NCBI RefSeq assembly: GCF_011440375.1
Contig: NZ_JAAOIR010000001.1
Coordinates: 372,001-436,000, forward strand
Reading direction: 5' to 3'
DNA: 64,000 nt
Origin: Halorubellus sp. JP-L1
GTDB lineage: Archaea; Halobacteriota; Halobacteria; Halobacteriales; Natrialbaceae
Shown here: piece by piece, positions 12,671 to 27,745 of the stretch
Position numbering within the stretch: the stretch's first letter is position 1
How the letters are laid out: each line of letters begins with the position of its first letter
The notes under the pieces: generated by a model
Database searches by the model: none
The model's input: only the letters and a program-made list of their open reading frames with translations
What the model was told of the DNA's origin: nothing
Translations under genes and position numbers: made by a program

Positions 12671-13486
12671 TCATCCGAGCATGCCCCGGAGCATCGTCTC
12701 GGCGGTCTTCAGGCCGGAGGGCCGGGCGATGCGTTCCATCTCGTCGGCGTCGAGTGCGAAGTCGAAGACGTCGAGGTTCTGTGCGAGGTGCTCGCGGGAC
12801 TGGGACTTCGGGACGGCGCAGACCCCGCGGTGCTGTGTCGCCCAGCGGAGTGCGACCTGTGCGGGCGTCTTGTCGTACTGGCGGCCGATCGCCCAGAGGA
12901 GGTCGTCGTCGAGGACGGCCCCGTGCGCGAGCGGGCTGTACGCGGTCAGCATCACGTCGTTGTCCTGGCAGAAGCGCAGGAGCTCGCGCTGTGGCTTGAA
13001 TGGGTGGAACTGCACTTGGTTGGTGGCGATCGGGACGGGACTGCGCGCGATCGCCTTCTCGAGCTGGCGGCGGCTGAAGTTCGAGACGCCGACGTGGGAA
13101 ACGGCCCCGTCGTCGACGAGGTCGGCCATCGCGCGGAGGGTGGCGTCGAGGTCGCTGAGCGGGTTCGGCCAGTGCAGCAGGAGGAGGTCGACGTAGTCGG
13201 TGTCGAGGCGGTCGAGACTTTCGCGGACGGAAGCCGCTAGGTCGCCGGGTTCGTAGCGGTCGGGGCGGACCTTCGTGGTGAGGAAGACGTCGTCGCGGTC
13301 GACGTCGCCGTCCGCGATCGCGTTCCCGACGTGGCGTTCGTTCTCGTAGGCTTGCGCGGTGTCGACGTGTCGATACCCGAGGGAGAGTGCGGTCTTGAGG
13401 GTGCCGTACGCAGTCTGTCCGGTGAGCTTCCAGGTGCCGAGGCCGATGGCGGGGACGTCGTCGTCGCCGACGGGGACGTGCTCCAT
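12671..13486 (-). CDS. Aldo/keto reductase
   Basis: A 271-residue (beta/alpha)8 NAD(P)H oxidoreductase. The catalytic tetrad is complete: D42, Y47, K72 and H105 (LLHWPNP). The cofactor-binding C-terminal block SQSREHLAQN is present. The sequence is closest in style to 2,5-diketo-D-gluconic acid reductase-type AKRs. Substrate is unknown. The ATG at 13486 sits directly at the conserved VPAIGLGTW N terminus. It is divergent from a HAD phosphatase gene. Confidence 0.9.
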   Translation of the reverse strand: MEHVPVGDDDVPAIGLGTWKLTGQTAYGTLKTALSLGYRHVDTAQAYENERHVGNAIADGDVDRDDVFLTTKVRPDRYEPGDLAASVRESLDRLDTDYVDLLLLHWPNPLSDLDATLRAMADLVDDGAVSHVGVSNFSRRQLEKAIARSPVPIATNQVQFHPFKPQRELLRFCQDNDVMLTAYSPLAHGAVLDDDLLWAIGRQYDKTPAQVALRWATQHRGVCAVPKSQSREHLAQNLDVFDFALDADEMERIARPSGLKTAETMLRGMLG

Positions 13487-13640
13487 AACTCGTGGTTCGA
13501 GCGCCTCCGTAATGTGTTCTGTCGTCGAGGACGGGAACGCCGCGTCGAGCGAGCGGGCTCGGTCCGGGGACCGTTCGCCGGGGGACCCTGGTCGGGCGCG
13601 GGGCGGAAACGGTGAAGTGCTGGCGGCCGTTGGGTCGGGC

Positions 13641-14294
13641 GTGTACGACGCAGTCGTGTTCGACAACGACGGGGTGTTGACCGAGCGAACGGACCGGGAC
13701 GTACTCCGGGAGGCCGCGCGGGCCGCGTTCGAGTCGTTCAGCGTTGACGCGAGCGAAGAGACGCTCGACGACATGGTGGCGGGCGTCGATCCGACGTGGG
13801 TGGCGGAGACGTGCGACCGGCACGGGCTGGACGTCGACGCGTTCTGGCGGGAGCGCGACGAACAGTTCAGTACGTTCCAGTGCCGGGAGACGGAGGCAGG
13901 ACGGAAGCCGACGTACGACGACGTCTCCGTCCTCGACGAACTGGACGTGCCGCTCGGCGTGGTGTCGAACAACCAGAACGCGACCATCGATCACCTGTTC
14001 GAGGCGCACGACCTCCACGGGCACTTCGAGACGTGGTACGGGCGGGAGCCGACGATGGAGAGCGTCCGTCGGAAGAAGCCCGAACCGCACTACCTGGAAC
14101 GCGCGCTCGCGGACCTCGGTGCGTCGTCGGCGCTGTACGTCGGCGACAAAGCGTCGGACGTGCGGGCGGCGGTGGCGGCGGGCGTCGACTCGGCGCTCGT
14201 CCGCCGCGAACACAATCGCACGCTCGAACCGGATCCGGTGCCGACGTACGACCTGGACTCGCTCCACCGCATCCCCGACCTCCTCGAGATATAA
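13641..14294 (+). CDS. HAD-superfamily hydrolase (PGP/beta-PGM-like), paralogue A
   Basis: A 217-residue HAD hydrolase. Motif I is VVFDNDGVL (D8, D10), motif II is VVSNNQN, motif III Lys is in RKKPEPHYLERAL and motif IV is YVGDKASD. The helical cap lies between motifs I and II. The GTG at 13641 fits because the paralogue at 21005 starts at the same point relative to motif I. Both share RKKP/RKPNPHYLERALADL and an Arg/His-rich end. It is probably a phosphatase for a small organic phosphate. Confidence 0.85.
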   Translation: MYDAVVFDNDGVLTERTDRDVLREAARAAFESFSVDASEETLDDMVAGVDPTWVAETCDRHGLDVDAFWRERDEQFSTFQCRETEAGRKPTYDDVSVLDELDVPLGVVSNNQNATIDHLFEAHDLHGHFETWYGREPTMESVRRKKPEPHYLERALADLGASSALYVGDKASDVRAAVAAGVDSALVRREHNRTLEPDPVPTYDLDSLHRIPDLLEI

Positions 14295-19740: not shown

Positions 19741-20922
19741 ATGCGTGCCGCTCGACATGGGACGGGACCGGTCGCGGACCTGCGTGCGTACGCGTCGCAG
19801 GTCCATCCCGTCTTCATGCTCCCACCGATCGCCGCGGCGTGGTTCGGGGCGGCGCTCGCGCGGACGTTCTCGGTCCCGACGCTCGTCGTCGTCTCAGTCG
19901 CGACGTTCTTCGCGGTGTACACCGCGCACGTCAAGGACGGCTACGTCGACTTCCATCTCCGTGGCGAGGACGACGACCACCCCCTGACGCCCGGCGGGTG
20001 TCGGCTTGCACTCGTCGCGGCCGCCGTCGGGTTCCTCGCGTGCATCGTCGTCCTCTGGTCGACCGTCGGTCCTGTGTCGGCGCTCGTGCTCGCCCCGACG
20101 TGGGTGATCGGGTTCCTGCACGCGCCCGTCCTCGACACGAACCCTGTCGGGGCGACGATGGGGTACCCGGTCGGCATCGCACTCGTCATCGTCGGCAGCA
20201 ACCACGCCCAGACCGGCGCGTTCGAAGCGGCGGCGCTCGCGTTCGCGGTCGTCTTCCTGCTCGTGCTCACGGGCGTGAAGGTGATCGACGACCTGACCGA
20301 CGTGGCGTACGACGCGTCCATCGACAAGCGCACCGTCGGCGTCCTCCTCGGCCGGGAGCGCGCGCGCCGGTTCGCGTACGGCCTCGTCGGCGCTGGATTG
20401 TTCGCGGTGCTCGCGTTCGCCGTCGACGGCGTCGTGCCCGCGAGCGCGCCACTCGCGATACCGGCGTTCGTCGTCGTCGCCGCCTACGCCGCTCGCGCGC
20501 CCCCGGATCTGGCGACGATGCTCCTCGTCCGCGGCGCGTACCTCTTCCTCGCCGGCCTCGTCGCCGCCGTCTACTTCCGACCGCTCGCGGGGGTTGCGCT
20601 CCCGGACATCACGGTGCTCGGGCCGTGGACGTACCTCGCGACGGAGGTCGCGTTCGGCGCACTCGCCGCTGGCCTCCTCGTCCGCGCCGGCCGCGACGCC
20701 GCTCGTCGCGCTGCGACGACCGTCGTCGTCCTCTACCCGATCGCGTACGTCTGGGACTGGTACACCCTGGAGGTCGGCGTGTTCGCCATCCCGATGCGAA
20801 CGGGCGTGATGCTGCTCGGCATCCCGATAGAGGAGCACCTGTTCATGGTCGTCGTGCCCGCGCTCGTCCTCGGCATCCACGAGACCCTGCACGAGACGGA
20901 CGCGGACGGCGACGCACCCTGA
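19741..20922 (+). CDS. UbiA-family prenyltransferase fused to a lycopene-cyclase-like domain
   Basis: A 393-residue integral membrane protein with two parts. Residues about 15-290 are a UbiA prenyltransferase. The two Asp-rich motifs are HVKDGYVD (63-70; the usual Asn is His) and DDLTDVAYD (183-191), which bind the prenyl diphosphate through Mg2+. Residues about 293-384 match the CarR/CrtYc-type lycopene cyclase repeat: a WDW turn (338-340), FAIPMRTG and the conserved PIEEHLF (362-368). Haloarchaea elongate lycopene to C50 carotenoids with a UbiA enzyme (LyeJ); this fusion suggests elongation coupled to end-group cyclisation. That is inference. No other carotenoid gene is nearby. Confidence 0.8.
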   Translation: MRAARHGTGPVADLRAYASQVHPVFMLPPIAAAWFGAALARTFSVPTLVVVSVATFFAVYTAHVKDGYVDFHLRGEDDDHPLTPGGCRLALVAAAVGFLACIVVLWSTVGPVSALVLAPTWVIGFLHAPVLDTNPVGATMGYPVGIALVIVGSNHAQTGAFEAAALAFAVVFLLVLTGVKVIDDLTDVAYDASIDKRTVGVLLGRERARRFAYGLVGAGLFAVLAFAVDGVVPASAPLAIPAFVVVAAYAARAPPDLATMLLVRGAYLFLAGLVAAVYFRPLAGVALPDITVLGPWTYLATEVAFGALAAGLLVRAGRDAARRAATTVVVLYPIAYVWDWYTLEVGVFAIPMRTGVMLLGIPIEEHLFMVVVPALVLGIHETLHETDADGDAP

Positions 20923-21004: not shown

Positions 21005-21667
21005 GTGAGTTACGATACCGTCGTCTTCGACAACGACGGTGTCCTCGTCGGTCGAACGAGCTTCGACGTCCTCCGTGACGCCACGGAAGAGACGTTCGGA
21101 CTGTTCGATGTGACCGACCCGGACCCCGACCACGTCGACGACATGACGATCGGCGCCACCCCCGAACAGGTTGGCGTCGTCTGCGAGCACTACGACATCG
21201 ACCCCGACATCTTCTGGCGGACGCGCGACCGACGGCTGAGTCTCGCGCAGCAGGAGGAGGCCCGCGCGGGCCGGAAGACGTTCTACGACGACCTGCACGT
21301 CCTCCAAGACCTCGAGGTCGAGATGGGCATCGTGAGTTCGAACCAGCAGGAGACCGTGGACTTCCTCCTCGATCACTTCGACGTCCCCGTCGAATTCGGC
21401 GCAGCGTACGGGCGCGAAGCGACGATCGAGAGCCTCGACCGCCGGAAGCCCAACCCCCACTACCTCGAGCGCGCGCTCGCCGACCTGGAAGCCGACGCGG
21501 ACTCGGCGCTGTTCATCGGCGACAACGAGTCCGACATCACCGCCGCCGAACGCGCCGGGATGGACTCCGCGTTCATCCGCCGCCCGCACCGGCGGAACTG
21601 GGAACTGAACGTCTGGCCGACGTGGATCATCGAGGAACTCGAGGACCTCCACCAGATCTGTAACTAA
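21005..21667 (+). CDS. HAD-superfamily hydrolase, paralogue B
   Basis: A 220-residue HAD hydrolase with motif I VVFDNDGVL, motif II IVSSNQQ, motif III in RRKPNPHYLERAL and motif IV FIGDNESD. It is the paralogue of the gene at 13641 with the same length and C-terminal Arg/His cluster. The start is a GTG directly after a strong TATA box. It is a predicted soluble phosphatase; the substrate is unknown. Confidence 0.88.
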   Translation: MSYDTVVFDNDGVLVGRTSFDVLRDATEETFGLFDVTDPDPDHVDDMTIGATPEQVGVVCEHYDIDPDIFWRTRDRRLSLAQQEEARAGRKTFYDDLHVLQDLEVEMGIVSSNQQETVDFLLDHFDVPVEFGAAYGREATIESLDRRKPNPHYLERALADLEADADSALFIGDNESDITAAERAGMDSAFIRRPHRRNWELNVWPTWIIEELEDLHQICN

Positions 21668-26704: not shown

Positions 26705-27745
26705 ATGTCAGATCCTAACCTCTCTGAAAATCCAGCCGTGAATTATAGCCCTCGACAAGCACGACGCCAGTTCCTCGAATCCAAGAAGGGCGTAGTCAAG
26801 GACTCAACCGTTCGTGCATACCGATTTCCCACGAAACACTTCATCGAGTTCTGCGAGGAACACGAGATCGAAACAACTGGAGACATATCCGGGTACGTCA
26901 TCGAGAGCTGGAAGCAACAGCGCCGGAGCGAGAACATCAAGATCGTCACTCTCCATAACAACGTGAAGCACCTCCGCGTCTTCGTTCGCTGGTGCGAATC
27001 CGCCGATTTGGTCGAGCAGGGGTTGGCCGACAAAATGACCGTCCCAAACCTCTCAAACGAACAGGCGCGGAGTGACGACACCCTCCGGCTTGATCACGCC
27101 GAGGACGTACTCCGGTATCTGAAGACCTACGAGTACGGCAGTCGGAATCACGCTCTATTCCACACGTTGTGGCATACGGGCTGTCGTATTAGCGGCGCGC
27201 TCGCTCTGGACAAGAACGACTTCGTACAAACGCGGGACAAGTCGATCCTCCAGTTCCGAAATCGGAAGTCAGCGGGAACGGCGTTGAAGAACGCAAACTC
27301 GGGTGAGCGAGACGTGACAATCTCCGAGTCGGTGCGAAAGACGCTGGTGGACTACATCGAGGGGAAACGGGAAAACGTCGAAGACGAGTACGGCCGCGAC
27401 CCACTGTTCACGACGATCAATAGCCGAGTGCCTCGCCAACGCGCCTACAAAACGCTCGTGCCGGTCACCCGTCCATGCGTTCCGACGAACGGCTGTCCTC
27501 ACGACCGAGTGATCAACGACTGTGACGCCGCCCAGTCCGTCGATCAGGCACCGAGCTGTCCATCGTCCGTCTCCCTTCACCCCATCCGTCGCGGTTCGAT
27601 AACCTACCACATTAACCGGGGCTGGCCGAAGGAAAAGTTGAGTGAGCGTGTCGATGTGTCTGTGCCCGTCTTGGACAAGCACTACGACGCCCGAACGAAG
27701 GAGCAAGAGCGAGAAGGTCGGAAGGAATACATCGACTTGTTATAG
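26705..27745 (+). CDS. Tyrosine recombinase / phage-type integrase
   Basis: A 346-residue site-specific recombinase. The N-terminal SAM-like core-binding domain spans about 20-115 and the catalytic domain 125-340. The catalytic residues are R161 (GCRISGAL), H292 and R295 (LHPIRRGS), H302 (TYHINRG) and the nucleophile Y327 (DKHYDART). A Cys-containing insert (about 255-285) separates the two halves of the catalytic domain, as in several haloarchaeal integrases. It lies 113 nt from the partial tRNA-Trp sequence, so it is the probable agent of integration. Confidence 0.9.
   Translation: MSDPNLSENPAVNYSPRQARRQFLESKKGVVKDSTVRAYRFPTKHFIEFCEEHEIETTGDISGYVIESWKQQRRSENIKIVTLHNNVKHLRVFVRWCESADLVEQGLADKMTVPNLSNEQARSDDTLRLDHAEDVLRYLKTYEYGSRNHALFHTLWHTGCRISGALALDKNDFVQTRDKSILQFRNRKSAGTALKNANSGERDVTISESVRKTLVDYIEGKRENVEDEYGRDPLFTTINSRVPRQRAYKTLVPVTRPCVPTNGCPHDRVINDCDAAQSVDQAPSCPSSVSLHPIRRGSITYHINRGWPKEKLSERVDVSVPVLDKHYDARTKEQEREGRKEYIDLL

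Follow-up and report, generated by a model that had tools for sequence, protein, structure and literature searches.

A haloarchaeal UbiA-type prenyltransferase fused to a single lycopene-cyclase-like repeat: a candidate two-module membrane enzyme

A fusion of comparable architecture is known from Dietzia sp. CQ4, where LbtBC, acting with LbtA, forms the C50 β-cyclic carotenoid C.p.450; LbtC elongates lycopene, and LbtB depends on LbtA (PMC6393565). As in the haloarchaeal fusion described here, the cyclase subunit of LbtBC lies in frame with a UbiA-type prenyltransferase (PMC6393565). For the UbiA enzymes, both Asp motifs are cytoplasmic in the Archaeoglobus fulgidus structure (PMC4106721). Further points of comparison are LyeJ, the lycopene elongase/1,2-hydratase, which is likewise a haloarchaeal member of the UbiA family, the haloarchaeal CrtYcd-type lycopene β-cyclase CrtY, which consists of two repeats, and the DHNA prenyltransferase MenA. 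Proteins with a cyclase-type domain are collected in TIGR03462 as "lycopene cyclase domain-containing protein", a family label only, and the haloarchaeal repeat studied here scores above its cut-off both in fused and in split form. The open-licence papers searched yielded neither a function for the single-repeat haloarchaeal members of TIGR03462 nor, which is not proof of absence, a description of the haloarchaeal fusion. The principle of such a fusion has a precedent in LbtBC; the haloarchaeal pair itself appears to be undescribed.

The fused gene occupies positions 19741..20922 on the forward strand of the window, i.e. the whole stretch of 64,000 nucleotides of Halorubellus sp. JP-L1 that was analysed, and encodes a protein of 393 residues. 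The first-pass annotation had placed here a UbiA domain and a single cyclase-type repeat, and its coordinates and frame proved right, as did both domain assignments when compared with profiles and structures. In what follows, UbiA-X denotes the UbiA module of the fused protein, CarX its single cyclase repeat and G000 the host genome. UbiA-X covers residues 1–285 (19741..20595, forward strand) with nine transmembrane helices, and CarX covers residues 290–388 (20608..20904, forward strand) with three; the UbiA module thus comes first, unlike the order that the gene name suggests for Dietzia LbtBC. Pfam family PF01040 (UbiA) matched residues 27–252 with an E-value of 2.2e-8 and 34.2 bits, equal to its cut-off. 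In the C-terminal region, TIGR03462 (CarR_dom_SF, NCBIfam) matched residues 296–378 (E 7.6e-13, 48.8 bits, above the cut-off of 39.4), and PF18916 (Lycopene_cyc, Pfam) matched residues 298–382 with an E-value of 8.7e-6 and 26.7 bits against a cut-off of 27; in the whole-genome search of G000, the PF18916 match to the CarX domain was above the cut-off.

An AlphaFold2 model of the fused protein, built on a 65-row alignment (pLDDT 93.0, pTM 0.82), places nine helices in UbiA-X and a further three towards the C-terminus (residues 290–316, 318–345 and 363–388). Structural comparison of the UbiA part with solved UbiA structures gave Z-scores from 24.2 to 20.3, the highest for superposition on UBIAD1 over 266 residues at 3.1 Å, with archaeal DGGGP synthase at 23.6. 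A sequence search of the PDB gave no significant match (best E 0.12), and Foldseek with CarX alone gave none at E 0.001 or better, which is not evidence of a new fold.

UbiA-X agrees with the UbiA superfamily in its fold, for which eight or nine transmembrane helices are expected, and in possessing two Asp-rich motifs, for which the consensus forms are NDxxDxxxD and DxxxD. Motif II, at residues 183–196 (20287..20328, forward strand), is canonical and reads DDxxDxxxD(x4)K, whereas motif I, at residues 66–77 (19936..19971, forward strand), has the variant form DGYVD(x5)ED. The presence of both motifs, as claimed earlier, was therefore upheld, with the reservation that the first of them departs from the consensus. 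Residues D66, D70, E76 and D77 of motif I and D183, D184, D187, D191 and K196 of motif II are identical in all 111 UbiA-X homologues.

In CarX, the WDW and PIEEHLF motifs noticed at first reading are both present. The former belongs to a WDWY motif at residues 338–341 (20752..20763, forward strand) with near-invariant D339 and Y341, and the latter spans residues 362–368 (20824..20844, forward strand) with near-invariant P362, E364, E365, H366 and F368. A further pair, His380-Glu381, is located in the last helix (20878..20883, forward strand) and is near-invariant as well. Across approximately 91 CarX sequences, fused and split alike, D339, P362, E364, E365, H366, H380 and E381 are conserved at 98% or more. 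When the CarX profile was aligned with haloarchaeal CrtY, the second repeat matched with a probability of 95.5% (hhalign, E 1.4e-8) and the first at only 17.9%; CarX is therefore taken to correspond to the CrtYd-like half. The PxEE and WD motifs are common to CarX and CrtY, whereas H366, H380 and E381 are not found in the CrtY repeats. As judged from these alignments, CarX is a CrtYd-like repeat that has gained H366, H380 and E381, and the resulting E-E-H...H-E set of residues is possibly a metal or proton-relay site.

CrtY differs from CarX also in having two repeats and in lying near brp/blh in the loci read. At the family level, CarX belongs with the CrtYcd/CrtYef class by its TIGR03462 match; of the two repeats typical of that class, however, only the CrtYd-like one is present. 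It had been proposed that a second cyclase half might be encoded elsewhere in the genome, but PF18916 and CrtY profile searches of G000 found neither a CrtYc partner half nor a full CrtY; as a positive control, the CrtY profile recovered the CrtY of G001, the nearest relative of G000, at E 6e-117. With the same profile, no CrtY or second cyclase half was found in G132, another carrier of the fused gene. The genome of H. volcanii, included as a control, gave no PF18916 match.

The two modules occur together whether or not they are fused. Among 61 relatives, three have the fused gene, 46 have both halves as split genes (approximately 285 residues at 47–62% identity and approximately 105 residues at 47–73%), 11 have neither, and one discordant draft (G043, 81% complete) has the UbiA half only. 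When only the near-complete relatives are counted (n = 50), 44 have both, six have neither and none has a single half (Fisher p 6e-8, uncorrected for kinship). Within the order as a whole, 240 of 293 Halobacteriales genomes have a match, 47 of them in the fused form, and such recurrence means that the fused architecture is not a matter of chance. The fused gene was seen, among others, in Halorubrum, Halobaculum, Halobellus, Halogeometricum, Halolamina, Halovenus, Natronomonas and some Haloferax. After a targeted recheck, the exceptions to the pairing besides G043 were G266, with CarX and no UbiA-X, and G241, with a divergent UbiA-X and no CarX. Outside the Halobacteriales, a phylum-wide sample gave only three weak UbiA matches; given this and the joint occurrence within the order, the two-module enzyme is taken as haloarchaeal. 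The coupling of two activities supposed in the first-pass annotation accords with this pattern of fused, split but co-occurring, and jointly absent genes.

In the loci read, split UbiA-X and CarX were never within one stretch. The fused genes form mostly one cluster in the tree that crosses taxonomic families; the gene of the window is inside this cluster, while the other sampled genera of its family have the split form. The tree requires three changes between the fused and split states, a pattern that suits, but does not settle, one or a few fusions followed by transfer.

The predicted inside loops have lysine plus arginine values of 2.4, 2.9, 0, 5.1, 1.7 and 1.7, and the outside loops of 0.3, 0.1, 0.2, 0.1, 0.1 and 1.1. 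From the number of helices and this positive-inside pattern, we infer that the Asp motifs are cytoplasmic and that WDWY and the PIEEH loop are on the opposite face of the membrane. UbiA-X, a branch apart from LyeJ, would then transfer a prenyl chain onto an acceptor at the cytoplasmic face by Mg-diphosphate chemistry, and CarX would subsequently work on the isoprenoid part of that product at the opposite face, most likely by acid-catalysed protonation leading to cyclisation, isomerisation or hydration. The pair would work without a CrtYc partner and outside the bacterioruberin and retinal pathways. Such a two-module haloarchaeal membrane enzyme, in which prenyl transfer precedes protonation by CarX, is the best explanation of the whole, although we hold it tentatively, as a reading that falls a little short of probable. 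More speculatively, the protein could represent a new enzyme type that pairs a prenyltransferase with a stand-alone CrtYd-like repeat, each serving one end of a single isoprenoid on its own face of the membrane, to give an undescribed haloarchaeal lipid; as a complete statement this seems to us unlikely. A new end-group chemistry on an isoprenoid is a possible, candidate role of the fused protein.

One alternative is that CarX is not catalytic at all and stabilises UbiA-X or shapes a tunnel for lipid exit, which would leave the prenyltransferase as the sole enzyme. The obligate pairing would fit a structural subunit, and CarX is one repeat of a cyclase that normally has two, with no CrtYc half to complement it. 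However, PxEE and WD have been kept and two histidines and a glutamate have been gained, all near-invariant in the same set of sequences; since a mere scaffold would be expected to drift, these residues count against this explanation, and we regard it as an unlikely one.

Whether the fused protein makes carotenoids was assessed from the kinship of UbiA-X and from the distribution of pathway markers. Besides the fused gene, G000 (3.76 Mb) has five UbiA genes, four of which are named by NCBIfam as heme O synthase, DGGGP synthase, MenA and a LyeJ-type prenyltransferase. The LyeJ-type gene sits between CrtID and the bisanhydrobacterioruberin hydratase CruF, and its product scores 443 bits to PRK12875, whereas the fused protein had no match at E ≤ 1 to any of the elongase models PRK12875, PRK13595 and PRK13105. 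A tree of 36 UbiA proteins from haloarchaea places the UbiA-X family in a clade of its own with 100/100 support, far from LyeJ. Furthermore, neither the neighbours in the window nor the recurring annotated neighbours of approximately 80 loci are carotenoid genes, such as the crtD and cruF that accompany LyeJ. The kinship with LyeJ implied by the first-pass annotation was thus not borne out, and UbiA-X was rejected as the C50 elongase on account of the genome's own CrtID-LyeJ-CruF cluster, the failure to match the elongase models and the distant clade.

Of the remaining UbiA genes of G000, an orphan (L032:5065-5952, at approximately 997.7 kb of C1) adjoins a photolyase gene; its clade has 100/100 support, and it matched no named equivalog above cut-off. 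The heme O synthase is itself fused to a CtaA/COX15-type domain (L028:5135-6562, at approximately 922 kb of C2; PF02628 at residues 18–152 and UbiA at 208–454).

CruF is a marker of the C50 pathway. It is present in all 50 near-complete relatives, including those without the UbiA-X/CarX pair, and a C50 carotenoid product is for this reason not favoured; the bacterioruberin pathway was likewise rejected as the sole role, CruF being universal and the pair not. A second, weak CruF-like match of 37 bits was seen besides the true CruF in two genomes of the Halorubellus group (G000:C2:785384-785593 and G001:C6:130753-131067). Brp/Blh occurs in about half of the genomes and does not track with the pair. 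It was not found in G000, and with CrtY lacking there too, the retinal pathway was rejected.

These observations bear on a further explanation, in which lycopene or another psi-ended carotenoid is elongated by C5 and cyclised to a cyclic C45 or C50 carotenoid in the manner of LbtBC, albeit without LbtA. The architecture is indeed like that of LbtBC, in which the cyclase subunit is joined to an elongase (PMC6393565), CarX is within the carotenoid-cyclase family, and a polyene of the length of lycopene could span the membrane with one end elongated and the other cyclised; CruF, moreover, is present in nearly all carriers tested, so these should make lycopene derivatives. Against this, UbiA-X is outside the LyeJ group and matches no lycopene-elongase model, no counterpart of the LbtA on which LbtB depends was found in G000 or G132, CarX has conserved residues of its own, the fused gene is not linked to carotenoid genes, and the reviews found describe the main carotenoids of haloarchaea as bacterioruberin and compounds derived from it. 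With both the elongase-type UbiA and the LbtA partner wanting, the fusion is not of the LbtBC type, and this explanation is unlikely.

The best named model for the UbiA part of the fused protein is MenA, though with a weak match (E 1.5e-7, 31.3 bits against a cut-off of 264); for TIGR00751 the score was 27.9 bits with a cut-off of 102, so that UbiA-X remains far below the level of a MenA, and a true MenA is encoded elsewhere in G000. In the tree, the UbiA-X clade weakly adjoins MenA together with another clade, the deep branch on the MenA side having 89/89 support, and the model matches and this branch suggest at most a weak link to MenA. A sister family, UbiA-X2, approximately 39–41% identical in the members scored and without a CarX domain, was seen at eight loci (L245-L252: G225, G231, G267, G005, G020, G017, G089 and G111). 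Its recurring cluster comprises an AMP-dependent acyl/aryl-CoA ligase, an IclR regulator, a DASS-type anion transporter, an MBL-fold hydrolase and a LivG-like ATPase; by analogy, it hints at an acid or aromatic prenyl acceptor, which for UbiA-X may serve only as a lead. A modified prenyl-quinone or prenyl-aromatic, for which UbiA-X would prenylate an aromatic acid and CarX would close or modify the terminal isoprene, is another unlikely alternative. It draws on the MenA models as best named relatives and on the ligase, transporter and regulator genes beside UbiA-X2 (approximately 40% identical); against it, the genome has its own MenA, and UbiA-X is not clustered with CoA-ligase-type genes.

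The favoured reading, that of a two-module enzyme, points to an undescribed step of lipid synthesis in haloarchaea that belongs neither to the known pigment pathways nor to that of retinal. The function of the pair, which about four fifths of the Halobacteriales sampled retain, is unassigned in the literature searched and in the model libraries; as its genes nearly always occur together or fused, its product should be a lipid of some importance. It would show half of a carotenoid cyclase working with a prenyltransferase in place of its other half. Such genes should not be annotated as lycopene cyclase or bacterioruberin genes, and the pair is amenable to direct test in haloarchaea with genetics.

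Around the fused and split loci, nothing pathway-specific was found; those read contain regulators, transporters and housekeeping genes. By eye, an aspartate-type aminotransferase and an OBG-type GTPase are near many loci, and CBS-domain and RadB-like genes are near split CarX. In the window, HAD-type phosphatase-like genes flank the region at 13359-14294 (by eye) and 21005-21667, the latter approximately 80 bases downstream of the fused gene. A TATA-like stretch was seen by eye upstream of the fused gene and of this downstream HAD phosphatase gene, and with one before each, an operon of the two is unlikely. Further downstream, an ORF at 26705-27745 resembles a tyrosine recombinase, and the G+C content is approximately 0.52 at 26–30 kb compared with approximately 0.69 elsewhere; judged by eye from its composition and its recombinase-like ORF, this stretch looks like an integrated element.
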